59,038 nucleotides of DNA from assembly GCA_022826045.1 (NCBI GenBank), contig JAJDVQ010000029.1:1-59038 (forward strand), given 5' to 3'. Position 1 is the stretch's first letter. Every line of letters starts with the position of its first letter. The DNA is from Acidimicrobiia bacterium. Its GTDB lineage: Bacteria > Actinomycetota > Acidimicrobiia > Acidimicrobiales > Poriferisodalaceae. Position numbers and translations under genes: made by a program. Below the pieces are notes generated by a model, which saw nothing but the letters and a program-made list of their open reading frames with translations, was not told the origin of the DNA and did no database searches. This document shows positions 7,260-19,120 of this stretch, piece by piece.

Positions 7260-7407
7260 GGCCGCACCGTACCGGCCCAGCGAGCACGACGGTCGTGAGC
7301 GACATGTGGTGCCCGATCGGAGAGCGCTGCCGGGTCAGCGCCCGGCTGCTGGGCTAGTAGGTTTCGCCGAAAGCGCCGCCGGGCGCCATTGGGGAGGGGA
7401 ATCCACG

Positions 7408-9444
7408 ATGCACACAGTTCAATCGCGGCGCCATGCCGATCAACTCACGAGCAGGCGCCGCCGCAGAGGAGTCGGGCGCTCGTTCGGCATTCGGCTGGGC
7501 GTGGTGCTCGCCGCATTCGCCCTGATCGCAGTCGCCTGCGGCGGCGGAGACGACGGCGGCGACACCGGCGACGGCGCCGCACCGGCGGAGCCGGACACCA
7601 CCGAGGCTGCTGTCGAAGCGCCTTCCACCACGATGTCCGAGCAGGATGAAGAGGTGGTCGAGGCCCGCGAGGCCGGCGAAGCCACCGGCGAGGACGTCCG
7701 CGAAACTGAGACCGGCCCGGTGCACGGGGGCAAGCTCGTGTACGGCATCGAGGCCGACTCGGCCAACCCGTTCGTCCACTACGCCACCTCGTGCGCGATC
7801 AGCTGCCGCATGATCTTCCGTGCCATCACCGACTCGCTGTACATCACCGACAGCGACGGCGAGATCGTGCCCTTGCTGGTGGAGTCAGAGGAGCACAGCG
7901 ACGACTACATGACTTGGACGCTGACAATCCGCGACGGCATCAAGTTCCACGACGGCACGCCGCTGGATGGCGAAGCGGTGGCGTACAACATCAACCTCTG
8001 TCGCCTCAGTCAGCTCACGGGCCCGGCATGGCTGGGCGTCGACAGTGTTGTCGGCGAGGGACAGACAGTCACAGTGACGGCCAGCCCCGGCCAACCGCTC
8101 GCTGCCGGTGTCGGACCGGCTGGCCGCGCCGAAGTCTGCGGCCAGATGTTCAGCCCGGCATGGATGGAGACGCTGCCCAACAATCCGCTGTATGTCTCAC
8201 CGGCATCGCCGCTGCCTGAGGCCGCTCGCGAGGCGGCCCTCGCGAACGCTGCCGGCGATCCATCGGCGCCGGTCGGGCTGGGCGCATTCAGGTTCGTGAG
8301 CTACACGCCGGGCAACGGCAACAGCTTCATCGCCGAGCGCAACCCGGATTACTGGCGTGGCGAAAACGGCATCACCGGCGAGAACCTGCCGTACCTCGAC
8401 GAGATCGAATTCGTCGTGGCTGTCGACATCCAGGGTCGTTCGAACGGTCTGAAAGCCGGCCAGTTCGACATCATCCACACGGCGAACGCCGATGAGATCT
8501 CCAAGTACGAGGGCGATCCCGACTTCGTGCTGCTGCAAGCCAATGACTTCGGCGAGACCAGCCACAACCTCATCAACGTCGCGGCAGGTGTGAACCCTGT
8601 GCTGACATTCGTGCGCGGCGCTGAGGAGCCGATCCAGATGGACCCGCTGGGTCTCAATTCAGTCAATCCGCTGGTGCATCTGAGCTGCCGCAAGGCGATG
8701 GCTCACGCGTTCGACGGCGAGCGCTTCGCCAACGAACGCCACCAAGGCTTGGTGCAGGTGGCGAATGGCCCGTTCCCGCCCGGCAGCGTGGGCTACTTGG
8801 AAGACTCGGGCTTCCCGAGCTACGACCTCGACGCCGCACAGGCGGAGTTTGAGCAGTGCAAGGCCGACAGCGGCCAGAACCCGGTGACGTTCTCGTTCAA
8901 CACCACCAACGACGCATTCAACGTCGAGTCGAACGAGCTCATCGTGTCGATGTGGACCGAGGCGTTCGGAGATGAATTGGCAGTGTCGATCGCGCCCATC
9001 GAGCAAGGCCAGTACATCGGCTTGGCGTTGGCCGGCGTGTTCCAGATGCAGGGCTGGCGCAACCACGGCGGCGTGGATCCGGCGGAGCAGTGGTACTGGT
9101 GGAGCTCGGCGACGGCGAGTCCGGTCAACCCCGGGGTGCCTGAGCTCGCGCTGAACTTCGGGCGCTTCCAGGATCCCGAGATCGATGCTGCCTTCCAGGT
9201 CATCCGCCACAATCCCGACCCCGAGGCCCGGCGTGAGGCGGCAGAGGCGGTCAATCGGGCATTCGGCAAGAACGTCTGGAATCTGTGGACCTACTGGACG
9301 CTGTGGGGGGTCATCGCCAACCCGCGGGTGCAGAACATCACCGATCTGCCGATCCCCGACAACGCGGAGGGTTCCTTCCCGGTGATCTCCGGCAAGCACC
9401 ACTTGCCGCAGATCTGGTGCACCGACGGGAACTGCCAAGGCTGA
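7408..9444 (+). CDS. Peptide-type ABC transporter substrate-binding lipoprotein (family 5), copy 1
   Basis: The 678-residue product has an arginine-rich start, a hydrophobic segment and the lipobox LIAVAC (Cys about 47), followed by a Gly/Asp/Glu-rich linker. The body is an SBP_bac_5 extracellular domain: GKLVYGIEADSANPF, WTLTIRDGIKFHDGTPL, VGLGAFRFVSYTPG, NPDYWRG. It captures a peptide-like or other small ligand outside the membrane and delivers it to the two permeases downstream. GGGGAGGGGA lies a few bases before the ATG. The next gene is a close paralogue, so the operon carries two receptors. The ligand cannot be read from sequence. Confidence 0.93.
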   Translation: MHTVQSRRHADQLTSRRRRRGVGRSFGIRLGVVLAAFALIAVACGGGDDGGDTGDGAAPAEPDTTEAAVEAPSTTMSEQDEEVVEAREAGEATGEDVRETETGPVHGGKLVYGIEADSANPFVHYATSCAISCRMIFRAITDSLYITDSDGEIVPLLVESEEHSDDYMTWTLTIRDGIKFHDGTPLDGEAVAYNINLCRLSQLTGPAWLGVDSVVGEGQTVTVTASPGQPLAAGVGPAGRAEVCGQMFSPAWMETLPNNPLYVSPASPLPEAAREAALANAAGDPSAPVGLGAFRFVSYTPGNGNSFIAERNPDYWRGENGITGENLPYLDEIEFVVAVDIQGRSNGLKAGQFDIIHTANADEISKYEGDPDFVLLQANDFGETSHNLINVAAGVNPVLTFVRGAEEPIQMDPLGLNSVNPLVHLSCRKAMAHAFDGERFANERHQGLVQVANGPFPPGSVGYLEDSGFPSYDLDAAQAEFEQCKADSGQNPVTFSFNTTNDAFNVESNELIVSMWTEAFGDELAVSIAPIEQGQYIGLALAGVFQMQGWRNHGGVDPAEQWYWWSSATASPVNPGVPELALNFGRFQDPEIDAAFQVIRHNPDPEARREAAEAVNRAFGKNVWNLWTYWTLWGVIANPRVQNITDLPIPDNAEGSFPVISGKHHLPQIWCTDGNCQG

Positions 9445-9475: not shown

Positions 9476-11431
9476 TTGGCGCGAGCGCGTTCGCTCGCAG
9501 CAGCGGCAGCGTTCGCGCTGATTGCCGTCGCCTGCTCCGCCGGAGACGGCGGCGGGGGCTCTGGCACCCCATCCGACCCAGCCGATGACTCGGCAAGCGA
9601 CGCAGCCGGTGAGGTCGCGACGACGCTGGGGGAGTCGCAGGCGGAAGTTGTTGAGGCACGCGAGGCCGGAGAGGCCACGGGCGAAGACACTCGCGACGTC
9701 TCATCCGGCCCGGTGCACGGCGGACGGCTGGTGTACGGCATCGAGGCAGACACGGCCAACCCGTTCGCGCCCTACGCGGCGCTGTGCGCGATCTCCTGCC
9801 GCATGATCATGCGGGCTGTCACCGAGTCGCTGTACGTCACCGACGCCAACGGCAACATCGTTCCGTATCTGGTGGAGACCGAGACGGCCAGCGACGATTC
9901 CATGACATGGACGCTCCGGATCCGCGACGGCATCACGTTCCACGACGGCACGCCGCTGACCGGCGAGGCCGTGGCGTACAACATCAACCTGTGCCGCTTC
10001 AGCCAGCAGACCGGGCCCGGCTACCTGGGCATCGAGAACGTCTGGGGCGAAGGCCAGTACGTCCACTACGAGACCTCCATCCCGTTCGCCACTGGGCCCG
10101 GTCCCGCGTCGAGGGCGCAGGGCTGCGGCTTCATGTTCTCCCCGGCATGGCTGGAGACGCTGCCCAACAACCCGATGTACACGTCGCCGTTCTCGCCCTT
10201 ATCGTCTGAGGAGCGGGCGGAAGGGCTCGCCACCGCCACCGGCGATCCCTCGGCACCGGTGGGGCTGGGGGCGTTCAGGTTCGTGAGCTACACGCCGGGC
10301 AACGGCAACAGCTTCATCGCCGAGCGCAACCCCGACTACTGGCGCGGCCCCAACGGCATCACCGGCGAGAGCCTGCCATACCTCGACGAGATCGAGTTCG
10401 TGGTGTCGGTGGACATCGTGGGCCGCTCCAACGGACTGCGAGCTGGCCAGTTCGACATCATCCACACCTCCAACGCGGATGAGATCGCCAAGTACGAAGG
10501 CGACCCCGACTTCGTACTGCTGCAAGCCAACGACTTCGGCGAGACCAACTTCAGCCTCATGAACGTGGCATCGGGCACGAATCCGGTGCTCGCCGAGCTG
10601 CGGGGTCTCGACGAGCCGATCCCGATGGACCCGCACGGGCTCAACGCGGCGAACCCGCTGGTGCACCTGAGCTGCCGCAAGGCCCTGGCGCACGCGTTCG
10701 ACGGTGAGCGGTTCGTCAGCGAGCGGCTCCGGGGCTTGGTGCGAGCGGCGAACGGGCCGTTCCCGCCCGGCAGCATGGGCTACCTGGACGACTCGGGCTA
10801 CCCGACGTACGACATTGATGCCGCGCGAGCCGAGTTCGCCCAGTGCAAGGCCGACAGCGGCCAGAACCCGGTGACGTTCGGGTTCAACTCCACCAACGAC
10901 CCGTTCAACGTGGAGTCGAATGAGCTCATCGCGTCGATGTGGCGGGCTGCCTTCGGCGACGAGATCGCGGTGACGATCCAGCCCATCGAGCAGGGTCAGT
11001 ACTTCGGCTTGGCGCTGGCCGGCCTGTTCGAGATGATGGGAATGCGCGCCCACGGCGGGGTGGATCCCATCGAGCAGTGGCTCTGGTGGAATTCGTCGAC
11101 TGCGCTCCCGATCGACCCGAGCGTGCCCGAGCTGGCCTTCAATGTGGGGCGCTTCCAGGACCCCGCCATCGATGCCGCATACGACGTCATCCGCCACAAT
11201 CCCGACCCGGCAGCTCGGCGTGAGGCCGCAGAAGAGGTGAACCGGGCCTTCGGGCGCAACGTCTGGAACCTGTGGACGCACTGGACGCTGTGGGGCGTCA
11301 TCGCCAATCCCCGGGTGCAGAACCTCACCGATCTGCCGATCCCGGGCAGCGATGTCGGCGCGTTCGCCGTGAACGCCGGGGCGCACCATGTCGCCCAGAT
11401 CTGGTGCGATGACGGCGATTGTCAGGGCTGA
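9476..11431 (+). CDS. Peptide-type ABC transporter substrate-binding lipoprotein (family 5), copy 2
   Basis: This is a tandem paralogue of the preceding gene, 651 residues, with the lipobox LIAVAC at the N-terminus. Long identical stretches (SYTPGNGNSFIAERNPDYW, QFDIIHT.NADEI, CKADSGQNPVTF) show a duplication followed by divergence, mainly in the linker and around residue 200. The start is TTG at 9476, chosen because AAGGAGGAGG sits nine bases upstream and no ATG gives a full signal peptide. Only 31 bases separate it from copy 1 and 48 from the first permease, so they are probably co-transcribed. The two may have split ligand preferences. Confidence 0.92.
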   Translation: MARARSLAAAAAFALIAVACSAGDGGGGSGTPSDPADDSASDAAGEVATTLGESQAEVVEAREAGEATGEDTRDVSSGPVHGGRLVYGIEADTANPFAPYAALCAISCRMIMRAVTESLYVTDANGNIVPYLVETETASDDSMTWTLRIRDGITFHDGTPLTGEAVAYNINLCRFSQQTGPGYLGIENVWGEGQYVHYETSIPFATGPGPASRAQGCGFMFSPAWLETLPNNPMYTSPFSPLSSEERAEGLATATGDPSAPVGLGAFRFVSYTPGNGNSFIAERNPDYWRGPNGITGESLPYLDEIEFVVSVDIVGRSNGLRAGQFDIIHTSNADEIAKYEGDPDFVLLQANDFGETNFSLMNVASGTNPVLAELRGLDEPIPMDPHGLNAANPLVHLSCRKALAHAFDGERFVSERLRGLVRAANGPFPPGSMGYLDDSGYPTYDIDAARAEFAQCKADSGQNPVTFGFNSTNDPFNVESNELIASMWRAAFGDEIAVTIQPIEQGQYFGLALAGLFEMMGMRAHGGVDPIEQWLWWNSSTALPIDPSVPELAFNVGRFQDPAIDAAYDVIRHNPDPAARREAAEEVNRAFGRNVWNLWTHWTLWGVIANPRVQNLTDLPIPGSDVGAFAVNAGAHHVAQIWCDDGDCQG

Positions 11432-11479: not shown

Positions 11480-12619
11480 ATGAAGCAGGCTGTTCGCGAT
11501 CAGCTCGGCCGCATCGTCGCGGTAGCGCTGCTGGCCACGATCGCGTGGGCGTGGTTCTGGCGGCCCCCGTTCAGCTGGACCTTTGGCGTGCTCGTCGCCA
11601 TCGGCACCGTCGGGGCCGGCATCGCCGACGGCCGCTACGCACTGCGTCGCATCGCCGGTGTGATCCCGGTGCTGGTCGGTGTGTCGTTCGTGGTGTTCGC
11701 GCTGATGGCGAGCCTGCCGGGCGATCCCGCCATCAACATCCTGGGCCCTGCGGCCACGGCGGACCAGATTGCGATCGTGCGCACCGAGCTCGGCCTCGAC
11801 GAGCCGTTCTTCAACCGCTACGGCAACTGGCTGGGCGGCGTATTGACGGGCGACCTCGGAACGTCGATCGTGCTGCGCGAGGACGTGGCCGACGGCATCT
11901 CGCGCTCGATGACCCCGACGCTGCAGATCATGGCCTATTCGGTCGTGATCGCCCTGGGCTTCGCCATCCCGCTGGGCATCTGGGCCGGCTACCGGCAGGG
12001 AACCAAGACCGACGGCACCATCAACAACGTGATGCTGGGGTTTCTGGCCACGCCGAACTTCGTGCTCGCCGTGATGCTCGTGCTCTTCCTGTCCATCGGC
12101 GGGCTCAGCGTGGCAGGCAACGAGATCGGATTCCGCGTGCTGCCGGCCGCGCGCTATGTGCCGCTCGGCGAGGATGTCGTGCTGCATTTCAAGCACATGC
12201 TGCTGCCGTCGCTGGCATTGGCGATGGGCCAAGCGGCCGTGTTCATGCGCTTGCTTCGGTCGGACATGATCGCCACGCTGCGCCTGCCGTTCATCGATCT
12301 GGCTCGCAGCAAAGGGCTGCCGACGCGACGGATCCTGTGGCGCCACGCGCTGCGACCGTCGAGCTTCACGCTGCTGACCGTGGTGGGGCTGACCGTCGGC
12401 CTGCTCATCGGCGGCGCGCTGATCGTCGAGTTCATCTTCACGATCCCAGGCGTGGGGGCGTACATCTTCTTGGGCGTGACCCAACGCGATTTCATCGCCG
12501 TGCAGGGCGGCGTGCTGGTGATCTCGACGCTCTACATCGTGGTGCTCACCATGTCCGACTTCCTGTACCTGTCCTTGGACCCGAGGCTGCGCGGCCGGGA
12601 GGTGGGCGCTCGTGCGTAA
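11480..12619 (+). CDS. ABC transporter permease, DppB/OppB type
   Basis: This 379-residue integral membrane protein begins with two extra hydrophobic helices before the conserved DppB start (RRIAGVIPVLVGVSFVVFAL, then LPGDPA). Near residue 275 it has the EAA-like cytoplasmic loop LPFIDLARSKGLPTRRILWRHALR, which docks with the ATPase. GVGAYIFLG and RDFIAVQGGVLVIS follow. DppB proteins are usually near 310-340 residues, so the N-terminal extension is the oddity. GAAGGGGGG precedes the ATG. Its stop overlaps the GTG of the next permease by eight bases, which suggests translational coupling. Confidence 0.95.
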   Translation: MKQAVRDQLGRIVAVALLATIAWAWFWRPPFSWTFGVLVAIGTVGAGIADGRYALRRIAGVIPVLVGVSFVVFALMASLPGDPAINILGPAATADQIAIVRTELGLDEPFFNRYGNWLGGVLTGDLGTSIVLREDVADGISRSMTPTLQIMAYSVVIALGFAIPLGIWAGYRQGTKTDGTINNVMLGFLATPNFVLAVMLVLFLSIGGLSVAGNEIGFRVLPAARYVPLGEDVVLHFKHMLLPSLALAMGQAAVFMRLLRSDMIATLRLPFIDLARSKGLPTRRILWRHALRPSSFTLLTVVGLTVGLLIGGALIVEFIFTIPGVGAYIFLGVTQRDFIAVQGGVLVISTLYIVVLTMSDFLYLSLDPRLRGREVGARA

Positions 12620-13442
12620 GCGGCTGGGATTCGTCTTCTGGCTGGCGGTGGCATACCTCGTCGTGCTGGCCCTTGCGGCTGTATTCGCCGACGTGCTGCC
12701 CATCAAGGACCCTGCCGAGACCTTCCCGGGCACCTCGAAACAGGGGCCCAGCCTGACTCACTGGTTCGGCAATGACGGGGTCGGCAGGGATGTCTTCAGC
12801 CGCGTCATCTACGGGGCGCAGGTGAGCCTCGTGATCTCGACCGTCGGCACCGTGCTGGCGTTGGTGATCGGCGGCCTGCTCGGCATGGTCTCGGGGTACT
12901 TCAGCAGCCGGGTCGATCGCTGGCTCACGGCCACGCTGAACGCATCGCTGGTGATCCCGCCGCTGATCCTTTTCTTGGCGTTGGTGCTGTTCCTGGACGG
13001 CGAAGCGAAGCGGCGCATCTTCATTCTGGTGTTCACCTTCGTGCTGCTGTCGATCGCGCCGATAGCGCGAGTGGTGCGTGCCGCCACCTTGAGCTGGGCC
13101 GGGCAGGACTTCGTGCTCGCGGCCAGGACTCTCGGGGCCCGAGACGGCAGGGTGCTGTTCCGTGAGATCCTGCCGAATGTGGCGCCCTCGTTCGTCAGCT
13201 ACTCGCTCATCATCATGGCGGGCCTGATCGTCGTGGAGGGCTCGGTGGCATTCCTGGGACTGAGCGTCCCGCCGCCGACGCCCACCTGGGGCGACATGAT
13301 CAACAAGGGGCGCACCAACCTCGACGTGGCCGCCCACATCAGCCTGATGCCCGCAATCGTCATGTTTGTGACGGTGCTGGCGCTCAACTTCGTGGGCGAC
13401 AAGCTGCAGCAGTACTTCGAGCCGAGGGAATCGGTCTTGTGA
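12612..13442 (+). CDS. ABC transporter permease, DppC/OppC type
   Basis: This 276-residue permease starts at a GTG inside the end of the upstream gene. It shows the DppC features HWFGNDGVGRDVFSRVIYGA, a set of about six hydrophobic helices, the cytoplasmic EAA loop DFVLAARTLGARDGRVLFREILPN, and EGSVAFLGLSVPPPTPTWG near the end. It forms the heterodimeric channel with the DppB-type subunit. The ATPase genes follow after 13 bases. Nothing appears truncated. Confidence 0.95.
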   Translation: MRKRLGFVFWLAVAYLVVLALAAVFADVLPIKDPAETFPGTSKQGPSLTHWFGNDGVGRDVFSRVIYGAQVSLVISTVGTVLALVIGGLLGMVSGYFSSRVDRWLTATLNASLVIPPLILFLALVLFLDGEAKRRIFILVFTFVLLSIAPIARVVRAATLSWAGQDFVLAARTLGARDGRVLFREILPNVAPSFVSYSLIIMAGLIVVEGSVAFLGLSVPPPTPTWGDMINKGRTNLDVAAHISLMPAIVMFVTVLALNFVGDKLQQYFEPRESVL

Positions 13443-13455
13443 GGGCTGGTATCTG

Positions 13456-15168
13456 ATGGCAGGCAGCGGAGACGCCCATCTGCGCCCGGATGCGCTCCTG
13501 AGCGCGCGGGATCTGGTGGTCGAGTTCCCCGCGGCCGGCGGACGGACGGTGTACGCGGTCTCGGGTGTGTCGCTCGACTTGACCGAGGGCGAGACCCTCG
13601 GGCTGGTCGGCGAGTCGGGCTGCGGCAAAAGCACGACTGGGCGGGCGATCCTGCAGCTGCCACGGCCCACCTCGGGCACCGTGCAGCTCGCCGGCCAAGA
13701 GCTGACCGAACTCGACGAGGACGCCATACGCGAGGTGCGGCCGCGGCTGCAGATGATCTACCAGGATCCGATCTCGTCACTGAACCCCCGGCGCCGCGTG
13801 CGCGACATCGTGGCCGAGCCGCTGTTCATCGCCTTGGAGAACGTGTCGAGGCGGACCGCCATGGCGGTGTGGCAGGAACGCATCGGCGAGCTGCTGCAGA
13901 GCCTGTTGCGGCGAGCTGCAGCCCCGCTGCGCATCGTGGGCCGGCTGGCCTCGGTGGCCTTCGTGCTGTGGATACTCTCCGAGACCGTCGAGGAGCGTGC
14001 CGCCGAGGGGTGGCTGGGCTGGACGCAGGTGCCTGCAGCGATCATCGGCTTCCCGACGCTCGCGTTGTTGCTGCTGGCCGGCGCAATTGCCCTGTTGCTC
14101 GGCCTGACCTGGGTGCTGCTCGCAGTGATGCTGCCCTTTGGCCTGATGTCGCGCCAGTTCGGTGAGGTGTCCGGTGCTGTCGGGCTCGCGGGCGTGGTCG
14201 TCACCACGGGCGCGAGCGCCTTCATGCTGTGGCGCACTTGGTCGAGTTTCGGAGGCTGGGCGAAATGGCTGAACTCCGGCGGGCTGATCCTGCTCACCGC
14301 CGTGCTGGCGGTATGGCTCGTGCTGTCTGTTGCGAAGCCCGAGCGGGCGGGTGCCAGTGGAGTCGCAACGACGCTGAGCGCCATGGTGGTCCTTCAGGTC
14401 TTCTACGTCGCCGGTCTTGACGGAGGCATCAAGCTGGCGGTGCTGGTTGCCTCGGCGGTCGTCGACGCCCTCCTGTTCCGCTGGGTCCTGCGGCGTTACC
14501 GGGTGAACCGCGACGCCGAGCGCGAGCAGGCTGAGCCGCGCGTCCGCGAGGTGCTCGACTACGTCGGCATCAACCCCGACGACGCCATGGACCGTCGGCC
14601 GTGGGAGTTCTCCGGCGGGCAGGCACAGCGGCTCTCGATCGCCCGTGCGCTGGTGAGCGTGCCGCAGGTGATCATCTGCGATGAGCCGGTGTCGTCGCTG
14701 GACGTCTCGGTGCAGGCGCAGATTCTCAATCTGCTCGAAGACCTCAAGAACCTCATGGGCCTGACGCTGGTGTTCATCGCGCACGACCTGGCGGTGGTCA
14801 AGAACGTGAGCGACCGGGTGGCAGTCATGTACCTGGGCAAGCTCTGTGAGGTCAGCGAGCCCGATGCCATGTTCGAGGAGCCCGCCCATCCGTACACGGA
14901 GTTGCTGCTGGCGGCGATTCCGCAGCCTGATCCGGAGGCGGAGCTGGGGTCGGGGCGCATCGGCGGCGAGCTGCCCTCGCCGATGGATCCTCCGTCGGGC
15001 TGCCGGTTCCGCACCCGCTGCCCGCACGCGGCGCAGCGCTGCATCGACGAAGAGCCCGAGATGCGGGAGATCGCTCCTGGGCGCTTCGTGGCCTGTCACA
15101 CGCCGCTCGTCGGCGAAGAGGCGCCGGTGCGCGTCGAGATGGCGTCGGCCTCGCGGGGCGAGTCGTGA
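13456..15168 (+). CDS. ABC transporter ATPase (DppF/OppF-like) with a polytopic membrane insertion in the ATPase domain
   Basis: This 570-residue protein has all ATPase motifs, split by a membrane module. Walker A GESGCGKST is at 52-60, the Q-loop IYQDP at 101-105 and FSGGQAQR at 385-392. Walker B VIICDEP is at 405-411 and the H-loop IAHD near 441. The oligopeptide C-terminal Cys motif (CRFRTRCPHA) is near 516. In ordinary DppF proteins about 35-45 residues separate the EPL after the Q-loop from the signature; here about 260 do. Residues about 130-355 contain five to seven hydrophobic spans (near 158-176, 192-230, 238-258, 276-293, 303-345) flanked by Arg-rich ends, then normal helical-subdomain sequence resumes at PRVREVLDYVGINPDD. 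The frame is uninterrupted, so the insertion is in-frame and probably expressed. Its role is unknown; membrane anchoring or sensing is a guess. Confidence 0.9.
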   Translation: MAGSGDAHLRPDALLSARDLVVEFPAAGGRTVYAVSGVSLDLTEGETLGLVGESGCGKSTTGRAILQLPRPTSGTVQLAGQELTELDEDAIREVRPRLQMIYQDPISSLNPRRRVRDIVAEPLFIALENVSRRTAMAVWQERIGELLQSLLRRAAAPLRIVGRLASVAFVLWILSETVEERAAEGWLGWTQVPAAIIGFPTLALLLLAGAIALLLGLTWVLLAVMLPFGLMSRQFGEVSGAVGLAGVVVTTGASAFMLWRTWSSFGGWAKWLNSGGLILLTAVLAVWLVLSVAKPERAGASGVATTLSAMVVLQVFYVAGLDGGIKLAVLVASAVVDALLFRWVLRRYRVNRDAEREQAEPRVREVLDYVGINPDDAMDRRPWEFSGGQAQRLSIARALVSVPQVIICDEPVSSLDVSVQAQILNLLEDLKNLMGLTLVFIAHDLAVVKNVSDRVAVMYLGKLCEVSEPDAMFEEPAHPYTELLLAAIPQPDPEAELGSGRIGGELPSPMDPPSGCRFRTRCPHAAQRCIDEEPEMREIAPGRFVACHTPLVGEEAPVRVEMASASRGES

Positions 15169-16319
15169 GCGACGCCTCGGCGCCGGATCTGACGGGGAAT
15201 GACGAGCAGTCGCTGCTCGACATCGCTGAACTGCGCACCACCTTCCACACCGCGGTAGGCCCGCTGGTCGCGGTCGACGGAGTCGAGTGGTCGCTGCGTC
15301 GGGGCGCTCGGCTGGGCGTGGTGGGGGAGTCGGGCTCGGGCAAGTCGGTCATGTCGAGGTCCATCATGCGGCTGCTGCCCAAATCCCGGGTGACCTCGAC
15401 CGGCAGCGTGAGCTTCGACGGCATCGACATGATGTCGCTCGGCCGCCGCGACCTGCTCGAGATGTGGGGGCCGCAGCTCGCCATGGTCTTCCAGGATCCG
15501 CTGGGCTCGCTGAACCCGGTCATGAAGATCGGCAAGCAGGTGGGCGAGGGTCTGCGGGTGCATCGCGACCTGTCGGCGCGTGCCGCACGCAGCGCTGCGC
15601 TCGATCTGCTCGAAGAGGTAGGCATTCCCGAGCCGCACCGGCGCATCGACGAGTATCCGCACCAGCTCTCGGGCGGGATGCGCCAGCGCATCGTGATCGC
15701 CATCGCCTTGGCGTGCAGCCCTCGCCTGCTCATCGCGGATGAGCCGACCACGGCGCTGGATGTCACTGTGCAAGCCCAGATCCTGGACTTGCTCGAAGCT
15801 CAGCGGGCCGAGCGCAACATGTCGCTCGTGCTCATCACCCACGACCTGGGAATCGTGGCGGGCCGCACCGACGAGATCATCGTGATGTACGCGGGGCGGA
15901 TCGTGGAGCGCGCTCCCACGTCAACCCTGTTCAGCGACATGAGGATGCCCTACACCGAGGCGCTGTTCCGGTCGATCCCCAAGGTCACCGACGACAGCCA
16001 TGCGCGCTTGGAGATCATCGGCGGTCAGCCGCCCCAGATGACCGATCTGCCGCCCGGATGCAAGTTCGCTCCCCGCTGCAAGTACGCGCAAGATCTGTGC
16101 TTCGCCGAGGAGCCGGCGCTCATCGAGGTGCCCAAGGCAGCACCCGCTCGATCGAGCATCACCGACAGTGGCGACGACGGCGAGCCCGATCCCGCCACGG
16201 GTGTGCACCTATACCGCTGCTTCTACCCGGTCGGCACGCCCGAGGCGGCCGAGGCGTTCGAGCGCAACATCGCGTCGGGCCGGGTCAGCGAAGCCGGGGT
16301 CGTGATCAACCCCACCTGA
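15165..16319 (+). CDS. ABC transporter ATPase, DppD/OppD type
   Basis: The 384-residue ATPase has Walker A GESGSGKS at 54-61, the Q-loop FQDPLGSLNP, the signature LSGGMRQR near 168, Walker B LLIADEPTTALD near 185, and the oligopeptide-family C-terminal cysteine motif CKFAPRCKYAQDLC near 300. Unlike its partner it has no insertion: about 45 residues separate Q-loop and signature. The GTG start overlaps the stop of the previous gene in GTGA, which implies coupled translation. With the inserted ATPase it should make the heterodimeric motor of the importer. It ends the operon. Confidence 0.95.
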   Translation: MSDASAPDLTGNDEQSLLDIAELRTTFHTAVGPLVAVDGVEWSLRRGARLGVVGESGSGKSVMSRSIMRLLPKSRVTSTGSVSFDGIDMMSLGRRDLLEMWGPQLAMVFQDPLGSLNPVMKIGKQVGEGLRVHRDLSARAARSAALDLLEEVGIPEPHRRIDEYPHQLSGGMRQRIVIAIALACSPRLLIADEPTTALDVTVQAQILDLLEAQRAERNMSLVLITHDLGIVAGRTDEIIVMYAGRIVERAPTSTLFSDMRMPYTEALFRSIPKVTDDSHARLEIIGGQPPQMTDLPPGCKFAPRCKYAQDLCFAEEPALIEVPKAAPARSSITDSGDDGEPDPATGVHLYRCFYPVGTPEAAEAFERNIASGRVSEAGVVINPT

Positions 16320-16331
16320 CGATTGATCAAA

Positions 16332-17858
16332 ATGTCCCCTTCGATGGCCGACGGCCCGGTAGCGATGTCATGGGGCTGGCGGACGATCCTGTGTGCATGC
16401 ATCTTCCTCGTTGCGAGTTGTTCTAGTGAGACGCCGCAAGACTCATCGCTCGCTCCGGATACGTCCGTAAGCAGCCAGCCGGAAGCCCCTTCGGCTTCCA
16501 CAACAACAAGTGCTGTAGCAAGACCGGCTGCCGGCAGCCCTCGGGACTCTCTCCCGGTGCCAGTGTCATCGGTCCCGGCGCCCATTGAGGACGCAGAGTC
16601 ACCGGAAGCCGACGAGTCCCATGGTGAGTCGATCACGAATGCAGGAACGGCTGGCCAGACCGAAGATTCCCAGCCAGAAACAGACCCAGGTGCCACTGGT
16701 GCCGGGTCCGAAGCAGAGCCTGAGACTGCCGACACTGAGGGCGAGCCGTCGCGCGATGAACGGTGCGAGCCGCTGGTTCCTCCGCCTCTCGTCGCGTACG
16801 ACGACGGTGACACATGGGAAGGAACGCCGATCATTGTCCCTCGCAAGGCCGTCGGTCTCACCGCTGGCGAAGCGCCCATCGCACCGGCTGCACTGCAACC
16901 ACTTGACGGTGCCGAACTGGTGTTTCATGGCGCATGCGAGGTGCAGGCCTTCGAACGCGATGGGACCCTGAAGCGCGAATGGGCGTTTGATCAGCCGGTC
17001 CAAAATGTCTATGCCGACGGCGGAGGGGGCGTCGTCTACGAACAGATCGGTGATTCCACGCACAATCGTGAGCTGCGATGGTGGCCGGCAGGCGCCGACG
17101 AGCCGACGGTACTGCTGACTGGCATCTTCACGTTCGGCGATGGGGGATTCGAGAGCTACTTCGGCGTCACTGTCGTGGAGGACTCGCCGGTCGTCCTGTA
17201 CACGACCATCGAATGGCCCGAGGATGAAGATGAGTGTGTCGGCTGCAACCCCAACTACCTGGAGGTGCTCTATCGGAGGGAGCTTCTGGGCACTGACTCG
17301 CTGCGACTTGGCGATGTGGGTGGCCACGAGTGGGCGTTTGAGCCAAAGGCGATCACCCCGGAAGCGATCTACGGCTTCAACAGCACCGATGGTGGCCAGT
17401 GGAACTCAGCTGTTGCTACAGATCCAGAGAGCCGCGACGAGGTGTCCTTCATCACGCGAACTGACGACTTCGACGGCGACTGCTTCGACCGTCCAGACTC
17501 GTTGATTTGCCCGACGCTGATTGTGCCCGTTGGCGATGGCTTTGTCGTCGGCTTTGTAGCGTTCTCTGACGGACATGACGCCCGCCTGTATGTGCTTGCT
17601 CGTGTAGATGGCACCTCAGGCGAGATCGTTGAGTTCTTCCCTGTGGTGCTGACCGGTAGCGGCTGGAACGTGCTCGGCGTTCAGGTTTCGGGCCAGCGCG
17701 TGGTTCTGAATAGGTCAAGTGCGCAGACCCATCTCGGTGGACGGCGCACGGAAAACCTCCGCCGTCCGATCATCGTCGACTTGGCTTCGCGCACAGCAGA
17801 GGTGTACGACCGCTACGGCACGCTCCATCTCACTCAGAGCTGGGATCACCCGTCCTGA
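16332..17858 (+). CDS. Secreted lipoprotein of unknown function
   Basis: The protein (about 508 residues from the ATG at 16332; ATG 16368 is also possible) has a signal peptide ending in the lipobox LVASC. A roughly 110-residue Ser/Thr/Pro/Glu-rich linker follows, typical of surface lipoproteins, then a globular part beginning CEPLVPPPLVAYDDG. This part has periodic aromatic and Gly/Asp motifs (GGGGVVYEQIGD, VLYRREL, VDLASRTAEVYDRYG) that suggest a beta-propeller-like sheet protein. It also has CVGCNPN and paired cysteines. I do not recognise the family. It follows the ABC operon by 13 bases, so co-transcription is possible but not shown. Confidence 0.8.
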   Translation: MSPSMADGPVAMSWGWRTILCACIFLVASCSSETPQDSSLAPDTSVSSQPEAPSASTTTSAVARPAAGSPRDSLPVPVSSVPAPIEDAESPEADESHGESITNAGTAGQTEDSQPETDPGATGAGSEAEPETADTEGEPSRDERCEPLVPPPLVAYDDGDTWEGTPIIVPRKAVGLTAGEAPIAPAALQPLDGAELVFHGACEVQAFERDGTLKREWAFDQPVQNVYADGGGGVVYEQIGDSTHNRELRWWPAGADEPTVLLTGIFTFGDGGFESYFGVTVVEDSPVVLYTTIEWPEDEDECVGCNPNYLEVLYRRELLGTDSLRLGDVGGHEWAFEPKAITPEAIYGFNSTDGGQWNSAVATDPESRDEVSFITRTDDFDGDCFDRPDSLICPTLIVPVGDGFVVGFVAFSDGHDARLYVLARVDGTSGEIVEFFPVVLTGSGWNVLGVQVSGQRVVLNRSSAQTHLGGRRTENLRRPIIVDLASRTAEVYDRYGTLHLTQSWDHPS

Positions 17859-17894
17859 CCGTGGCGTGGCACCGAAATTGTGTCGCGCGAATGT

Positions 17895-17923
17895 TTGCTT
17901 TTGGGTACATACGAATGTATGCT
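17895..17923 (+). promoter_or_regulatory. Candidate leaderless promoter and operator of the DUF222-HNH gene
   Basis: TTGCTT (17895-17900) and TATGCT (17918-17923) are spaced by exactly 17 bases, and the gene's ATG begins 6 bases after the -10, where transcription would start. There is no ribosome-binding site, so a leaderless mRNA fits. The inverted repeat TACAT-N4-ATGTA (17906-17919) lies in the spacer and touches the -10, a likely repressor site. LexA control is a possibility because some mycobacterial 13E12 genes are in the SOS regulon; that link is inference. Confidence 0.5.
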
Positions 17924-17929
17924 TACTCC

Positions 17930-19120
17930 ATGTTGGTCGACGCTCCGGTAGCCCTTTTCGAAGGCGATGCGGCGGCGGATAGGCGCAGTGGCGTCAACGG
18001 TACGACCGGTGCAGGCCTCGAGACCTTGAGCCATGGCAAGTTGGTTGAAGAGCTGGTGGATCTAGTGGCCGAGCGTGCTCGGCTGGAAGGCCGCTATGCG
18101 GCGGTGCTTAGCGAGCTGGTCTCCCGGGACGGTGCTCAGTCAGCTGCCTGGCAACTGCGTCAATACACGAGGATGAACTCAGCGCAGGCACACAGCGAGG
18201 CGCGGCTCGCGGAGGCACTGGTGGAGCACGAGTTCACCGACACGCTCGAGGCGCTGCGCGCCGGTGAGATTCAGATGTCCCATGCCAAGGTGATCGCACG
18301 GGAATCGCCAAAGAAGCACCGTCGTAGCGAGAGCGACCTCTTGGAACTGTGCCGGGCCTATCCGTCAGATGTCATTGCTCGTCACACGCTGGCCTACGAG
18401 AGCCTGCAGGTGTACGCCGATCTCGAAGCCGAGGCCGCAGCCGATGATCGCACGCCGGCCGATGCCGAACTGGCGCTGCAACGCGAGGAGCGCCGTTGCT
18501 CGATGTTGTTGGGCGATGACGGGATGTGGCACCTGCGAGCGGATCTCGATTTCATCACGGGCCGACAGATCAGCCAGCAGCTCGCGGCTGCTGAGCGGGC
18601 AGTGCGCCAGCAAGACGACGTCGGCGAGCTCACGTTTCCACAGCGCAATGCAGATGCACTCTGCGATCTGATCTTGGGCCGCCAGAAGTCTCAGGCGAAC
18701 CTGGTGATCGTTGCCGACTACGACATCGTGACGGGCCAGCTCGACAACCCTCGGCTCGACGACGGCACCCCGTTGTCAGCGCGACAGCTTGCCGAACTCG
18801 CAGCCGATGCCAAGGTGCTGCCGGCGGTCTTCAAGAGCGATTGGTCTGAACTGGCGTTGGGGCGGGCTCGTAGTGCCAACGACGCCCAGCGCATCGTGCT
18901 GGCTATCCGCGACGGAGGCTGCATCGGTTGCGCCACCCAGTCCGAACGCTGTCACGCCCATCACATCCAGCACTACGAGGATGACGGACTTACAGACATC
19001 CCGAACCTCGCAATGCTGTGCGAGCCCTGCCACATCGACCACCACCAACGCCACTGGGTCATCGACACACCACCCAACGGCACCCCGCGCCGCGCTCCGC
19101 CGCCGATTCTTCCCGACTAG
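17930..19120 (+). CDS. DUF222 / 13E12-repeat protein with HNH endonuclease domain
   Basis: The 396-residue product joins an all-helical DUF222 domain (about residues 40-280, LVELVAERARLEGRYAAVL-like helices and LAEALVEHEFTDTLEALRAG) to a C-terminal HNH nuclease. The nuclease has CIGCATQSERC, HAHHIQHYEDDG, and NLAMLCEPCHIDHHQ. These supply the paired cysteines and the catalytic HH-N-H residues. Such genes are abundant and mobile-like in actinobacteria; cellular function is mostly unproven. I chose the ATG at 17930, where a good promoter ends just upstream, rather than an in-frame start at 17861. Codon use is like that of its neighbours. Confidence 0.9.
   Translation: MLVDAPVALFEGDAAADRRSGVNGTTGAGLETLSHGKLVEELVDLVAERARLEGRYAAVLSELVSRDGAQSAAWQLRQYTRMNSAQAHSEARLAEALVEHEFTDTLEALRAGEIQMSHAKVIARESPKKHRRSESDLLELCRAYPSDVIARHTLAYESLQVYADLEAEAAADDRTPADAELALQREERRCSMLLGDDGMWHLRADLDFITGRQISQQLAAAERAVRQQDDVGELTFPQRNADALCDLILGRQKSQANLVIVADYDIVTGQLDNPRLDDGTPLSARQLAELAADAKVLPAVFKSDWSELALGRARSANDAQRIVLAIRDGGCIGCATQSERCHAHHIQHYEDDGLTDIPNLAMLCEPCHIDHHQRHWVIDTPPNGTPRRAPPPILPD

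Follow-up and report, generated by a model that had tools for sequence, protein, structure and literature searches.

The window (the whole 59,038-nucleotide stretch of DNA that was analyzed) encodes, adjoining on a single strand, two permeases with BPD_transp_1 domains, two ATPases and solute-binding proteins of the SBP_bac_5 family, which together we read as one Dpp-type importer operon (table 1). The substrate is probably peptide-like, judging at the level of the protein families present. The tandem binding proteins are 74% identical over 620 residues (blastp), and the GTG start at 7306 of the first seems too early, with a lipoprotein-like signal lying well downstream of it. A single binding protein stands beside the corresponding operon in a genome from another genus of the same family (G037) and in three loci of family f18 (L096–L098), and in L040 the binding protein is split over two frames. 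Directly 3′ of dppD lies the gene for a 511-residue lipoprotein-like product with a Ser/Thr/Glu-rich linker (16323–17858), for which no Pfam family was found at E ≤ 0.001, followed by a protein with DUF222 and HNH endonuclease domains (17861–19120). A scan of the DNA for promoters and terminators returned no more matches than chance would.

Table 1. Genes of the importer operon, with the parts of DppF and DppB discussed in the text
Feature	Positions	Strand	Basis
Solute-binding protein 1, SBP_bac_5 (start codon uncertain)	7306..9444	+	Pfam PF00496, 3.4e-49
Solute-binding protein 2, SBP_bac_5	9476..11431	+	Pfam PF00496, 7.9e-50
DppB-type permease	11480..12619	+	BPD_transp_1, BPD_transp_1_N
Extra N-terminal membrane hairpin of DppB, predicted (residues 1-54)	11480..11641	+	Hydrophobic windows
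DppC-type permease	12612..13442	+	BPD_transp_1, 4.8e-24
DppF-type ATPase with inserted putative membrane domain, 570 aa	13456..15168	+	ORF, Pfam, NCBIfam
NBD, N-terminal half (Walker A 52-60, Q-loop Q103)	13456..13845	+	Pfam, alignment
Insert, residues about 131-355	13846..14520	+	Loop of 230 vs 3-6 in insert-free relatives; no Pfam match
Predicted span 1 (157-175), in to out	13924..13980	+	Hydropathy; helix 115-182 in low-confidence model
Predicted long span 2 (194-229), out to in	14035..14142	+	Hydropathy; model helix 193-234; aligns with last span of L085
Predicted span 3 (241-259)	14176..14232	+	Hydropathy; low-confidence model
Predicted span 4 (273-292)	14272..14331	+	Hydropathy; low-confidence model
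Predicted span 5 (301-318)	14356..14409	+	Hydropathy; low-confidence model
Predicted span 6 (327-345)	14434..14490	+	Hydropathy; runs into next helix, 323-369, in low-confidence model
NBD, C-terminal half (SGGQ 386-389, D409/E410, H443) and C-terminal domain	14521..15165	+	Pfam, alignment
Cysteines C516/C522/C529/C547, spacing 6, 7, 18	15001..15096	+	Invariant in six-sequence alignment
DppD-type partner ATPase, no insert	15165..16319	+	Pfam, NCBIfam; loop gap 5

The dppF gene is one frame, open throughout, and its product passes the Pfam cut-offs for both ABC_tran (105 bits against 25) and oligo_HPY (67.5 against 27.1; residues 465–529), with the ABC_tran match split into two stretches. The best NCBIfam models are all of the OppF/DppF type, each scoring below its own cut-off (PRK15079 OppF, 353.7 bits against 540; PRK11308, 334.2 against 408; DppF_dipep, 282.2 against 660). 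The catalytic positions given in table 1, which we take to be the Walker A, Q-loop, signature, Walker B and H-loop motifs, are invariant columns in an alignment of six sequences that includes the window. The original prediction had described a complete and ordered set of ATPase motifs in an uninterrupted frame, had expected the ABC_tran match to be divided, and had placed about 220 extra residues between Q-loop and signature in this ATPase and none in its partner; this description holds, and the added length is 225 residues by measurement.

The Insert Is a Conserved Protein Domain

Loop length was taken as the distance between separate profiles of the two ATPase halves. Measured in this way, the loop is exactly 230 residues long in 15 genomes and 3–6 residues in 24 DppF without the insert from the same order, so that 225 residues have been added between the Q-loop and the signature; the DppD partners have a loop of 5 residues, and a genome from a third family (G236) has a DppF loop of 127 residues. 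The insert-free set comprises 24 loci outside the six-span group, minus one with the two-span form described below (L060) and one with no measurable pair of ATPase halves (L078), with the second DppF in L084 and the DppF of L099 added. Mapped on OppF (8z21_D), the insert falls between adjacent residues (profile positions 132 and 355 against chain positions 137 and 136), at a point where, as known from ABC structures, a loop presumably joins two helices of the helical subdomain.

Five genomes from outside the window's genus (G037, G380, G685, G701, and G706) have an insert 43–48% identical to that of the window and a catalytic domain 67–71% identical; the insert alignment of six sequences contains zero gaps. 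Over its whole length the insert evolves with dN/dS of 0.04–0.20 in seven comparisons, made on seven of the nine named relatives L021–L029 (L025 and L026 excluded), and its first part (131–232) reaches up to 0.29 in the most distant comparison. These low ratios indicate a protein domain under purifying selection rather than debris. The G+C content is even over the three parts of the dppF gene (0.703, 0.684, and 0.690).

An in-frame insertion in a conserved gene could also have been left by an assembly chimera, by a frameshift, or by an intein or other splicing element, and the original prediction had itself named a chimeric assembly or frameshift as the result that would overturn it. The recurrence of the insert at the same site and with the same length in 15 genomes, in divergent sequences and under purifying selection, excludes assembly error and frameshift, and we assign explanations of this kind as a whole a negligible probability. 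An intein was rejected in addition on the profile searches, in which a 240-residue piece bearing the insert matched nothing in Pfam at E ≤ 10 or in NCBIfam at E ≤ 1, and six aligned members had no Pfam match at E ≤ 1. Likewise, an insert profile matched none of the PDB sequences, and one of six members matched a single PHROGs family at E 0.66, which we take as chance.

Predicted Membrane Topology

The insert contains six windows with Kyte–Doolittle values of 1.70–2.62, compared with a best window elsewhere of 1.56 in DppF and 1.46 in the partner DppD, and mean hydropathy is 1.13 over residues 155–348 against −0.11 for the rest of DppF. Both ends of the insert are tied to the cytosolic ATPase, so the number of crossings must be even. 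Of the five to seven spans first proposed, the polytopic hydrophobic character stands and the number is best read from hydropathy as six. Under a six-crossing topology, the predicted inner loops carry 11–14 Lys/Arg residues and the outer loops 1–2 in all six sequences, with loop limits that were drawn by eye for this count and differ slightly from those of the conservation count below. We infer from these patterns a putative membrane location for the insert, with both ends predicted to be cytosolic; by the same prediction, the six hydrophobic windows set DppF apart from a peripheral subunit without membrane spans.

Two AlphaFold models, both of low confidence (pLDDT 43.1 and pTM 0.41; pLDDT 47.8 and pTM 0.30), each place six long helices at the predicted spans, plus one short helix. 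In the full model, the first helix starts before the insert and the last extends past it. The modeled helices lend weak support to the six-span layout and, carrying no information on the membrane, would suit a soluble helical insertion outside the bilayer too. Such an insertion is nevertheless very unlikely given the mean hydropathy, the six long hydrophobic windows and the charge bias between predicted loops.

Conservation within the insert is uneven. Across eight sequences, five of the six predicted spans are 5–16% invariant and span 2 is 33% invariant, compared with 56–59% for the catalytic domain, whereas the predicted outer loops are 33–50% invariant; conserved loop motifs are RTW.S..G, GLD...K and P.RAG, the last of these in a predicted inner loop that is itself 50% invariant. 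With spans less conserved than the catalytic domain, a bundle that acts mainly as a lipid-facing anchor fits as well. In its strictest form, that reading has the bundle do nothing but raise the local concentration or stability of DppF, with no part in coupling, and it gains from the probable two-span form (below), which does without spans 3–6. However, the exact conservation of length, the conserved loop motifs and the co-occurrence with a hairpin in DppB all exceed what a bare anchor needs, and we regard a purely passive role as unlikely. The contrast between outer loops and most spans might instead point to a sensor or regulator, in which the bundle and its outer loops detect a ligand, a lipid or the binding protein in its loaded state, with the helical subdomain relaying the signal that gates the ATPase. 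The inner P.RAG loop is conserved to the same degree as the outer loops, and the insert resembles no family in Pfam, NCBIfam or the PDB sequences; a sensory role seems distinctly improbable to us.

Taxonomic Distribution

The 230-residue loop is present in 10 of 11 genomes of the window's genus, in G037, and in four genomes of another family (G380, G685, G701, and G706). The remaining genome of the genus (G023, 84% complete) gave no match to the insert. A search with the insert itself matched 12 of the family's 39 genomes, one of them through a contig-end fragment (G038) that lies outside the 15 genomes. Among 397 genomes sampled from the order, a profile of the six-span insert found 11, counting this fragment, and it found 4 of 39 genomes of family f18; its single match among 395 genomes in the class sample was the window's own genome, and its three among 396 in the phylum sample were the own genome and two chance matches. 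These two weak phylum matches were rejected as a 126-residue open frame (G860) and, by reading of its sequence, a YidC-like insertase (G1021). A profile that includes the two-span form returned 16 of 394 genomes in the order at E ≤ 0.01; five of these, all weak matches (L111–L115), have no DppF domain and were set aside.

The insert was found neither alone nor in other ATPases in the window's own genome and, chance matches apart, nowhere outside DppF in the 397 order, 395 class and 396 phylum genomes sampled. The viral contigs yielded 80 pattern matches and zero relatives of the insert, and no relative was found on plasmids. The question raised at the outset, whether the domain exists by itself or in other ATPases, is thus answered in the negative for the sampled genomes, viral contigs, plasmids and PDB, and the suggested check for the same insertion in other Acidimicrobiia came out positive, with the same site and length in 15 genomes. 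The named relatives are metagenome bins labeled Acidimicrobiia, Acidimicrobiales, Acidimicrobiaceae or Microthrixaceae; those at L021–L029 largely repeat genomes from the genome search and are hence not counted as extra evidence.

A Probable Two-Span Form and a Hairpin in DppB

The DppF with the 127-residue loop in G236 (L085, 5778–7181) resembles a two-span version of the insert. Its insert occupies the same site and can be aligned to the window's first two spans, after which a basic stretch leads back into the ATPase, a basic end that agrees with the requirement of the topology. If the two are homologous, L085 would independently place an inner loop after span 2. Because the hairpin is 22% identical to that of the window and the six-span profile did not match it in the order sample, homology rests on position, pattern and operon. 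As to the operon, the L085 binding protein is 51% identical to the first of the window, compared with at most 38% in insert-free loci; its DppB carries the extra hairpin. The two- and six-span forms probably have a common origin, and the change may have run from two spans to six or from six to two. Within the family of G236 the form was seen in one of six genomes, G236 itself, with no second example.

The N-terminal hairpin of DppB, with two or four hydrophobic windows, is present in all nine insert operons in which DppB was examined (of 16, the two-span operon included) and in none of 15 other DppB, one of which belongs to a second pair in L097 whose DppF was not seen. The four solved DppB/OppB sequences among the matches listed align with the window's DppB only from residue 51–53 on. 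In G701 and G706 (L096 and L097) the hairpin is doubled to four hydrophobic spans. The second dppB–dppC pair of G706 (L097, 11969–13964) is hairpin-free and lies directly upstream of the insert-type operon. Gene order also separates the groups: dppF precedes dppD in the window, in the same-genus loci compared and in five six-span loci, whereas dppD precedes dppF in all 16 insert-free loci compared; in L085, dppD lies upstream in divergent orientation. The original prediction, whose reading is supported as regards a polytopic hydrophobic domain within the helical subdomain of an importer-type ATPase, and whose membrane insertion and roles as anchor, lipid coupler or channel stay proposals, mentioned neither the probable two-span form nor the DppB hairpin.

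In a tree of the C-terminal half of DppF, the 10 six-span rows form one group (98/95) and the two-span row sits among insert-free rows (81/84). A tree of the DppB core, with the hairpin left out, groups the six-span operons with the two-span operon (96/91; 95% of bootstrap trees), and the DppC tree gives the two-span operon no firm position (a single group in 38% of bootstrap trees). The trees place the two-span form inconsistently. The association of insert and hairpin is essentially one event and is not to be read as repeated co-evolution.

Six spans would also make up a permease core, and E. coli DppB and DppC have six each (PMC12136057); the insert could on that ground be imagined as a second translocation path, a channel of its own carried by the ATPase. 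The insert has no permease match in Pfam, complete DppB and DppC adjoin it, and a probable two-span form exists, all of which make a separate channel extremely improbable; the two-span form and the DppB hairpin fit an accessory membrane assembly better.

A Proposed Mechanism

Textbooks present the motor of an ABC importer as a soluble protein that docks on the membrane permeases by way of coupling helices. We hypothesize, and consider it probable, that the operon encodes a Dpp-type importer in which the helical subdomain of DppF is continued into a membrane bundle that serves as anchor and lever beside the DppB/DppC core. In such a Dpp/Opp-type (type I) importer, the nucleotide-binding DppF would have been partly turned into an integral membrane protein: the helices flanking the loop after the Q-loop would run on as short stalks in the cytosol and then as a bundle of six spans that begins and ends on the cytosolic side and is probably packed laterally on the DppB/DppC core and plausibly against the extra N-terminal hairpin of DppB. 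As a built-in anchor, the bundle would keep DppF docked; as a lever, it would link helices in the bilayer to the turning of the helical subdomain that ATP drives, in addition to the link made by the usual coupling helix. The standing of this reading is independent of the two-span form.

E. coli DppC is paired with DppF and DppB with DppD, and on the way between inward- and outward-facing states the helical subdomain rotates by about 20 degrees (PMC12136057). Since the insert interrupts the helical subdomain, a bundle tied to two of its helices would have to move along with it, bend or restrain it. Were DppC the sole partner of DppF here, as it is in E. coli, the bundle would not have to lie next to DppB. 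More tentatively, in a version that we entertain without expecting it, the ATPase is an integral membrane protein that may pass the subdomain rotation directly into the bilayer through the helices by which that subdomain is prolonged, alongside the classical coupling helix, to be received by the extra helices of DppB.

On the anchor-and-lever reading, this lineage seems to have welded the moving helical subdomain of its motor into the membrane, and the data suggest that some uncultured Acidimicrobiia have a motor set directly in the membrane. With this system one can test directly how far coupling can bypass the coupling helix and, given the probable simpler two-span form in a relative, how membrane domains enter soluble ATPases step by step.

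Comparison with Known Systems

A large insertion also characterizes the OppF-type ATPase described by model NF043078 (MMSYN1_0168, presumably a mollicute gene), in which the extra stretch lies between model positions 68 and 394, in the segment from Walker A to the Q-loop. The part that follows the Q-loop (positions 429 to 473) is too short to contain a large insert, and we rejected this insertion as an equivalent on account of its different site. The insert of the window's DppF has no Pfam or PDB profile match, and so shows none of the homology to a known ABC permease expected of the membrane domain of an ABC half-transporter (permease–ATPase fusion). Extra domains inside the nucleotide-binding domain that contact a partner are described for the arm subdomain of ABCF proteins (PMC6723617) and the signature-domain insertion of UvrA (PMC6486640); these are soluble proteins that act on the ribosome or DNA, and their inserts, unlike that of DppF here, do not span the membrane. 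The original prediction knew of no precedent among described ABC systems, and neither the family libraries nor the literature searched, which covers few subscription journals and was screened mostly through listings and the openings of abstracts, described an ABC ATPase with an insert that spans the membrane. Within that literature, inserted domains in soluble ABC ATPases are already known and a polytopic membrane insert in an importer ATPase is unprecedented.

The M. tuberculosis OppABCD and DppABCD systems (8j5q and 8wd9) are likewise actinobacterial peptide importers, with two ATPase domains in one chain (PMC12136057), which helped 8j5q_D to the top PDB match by summed score. Their aligned parts are without a membrane insert, unlike the window's DppF, and their DppB/OppB start where the core of the window's DppB starts.

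A close likeness exists to the DppBCDF/OppBCDF systems (E. coli DppF, 8z1v/8z1w chain D; OppF, 8z21_D), which share with the window the catalytic motifs, the oligo_HPY domain, the four-cysteine C-terminal domain, and DppB, DppC, DppD and SBP_bac_5 partners. The cysteine spacing of 6, 7, and 18 in the window's DppF is close to the 6, 7, and 17 that separate the ligands of the [4Fe-4S] cluster in E. coli DppF (PMC12136057). Relative to these systems, the window's importer is set apart by the 225 residues, with six predicted spans, that separate Q-loop from signature in its DppF, by the extra N-terminal hairpin of its DppB and by the order of dppF before dppD.
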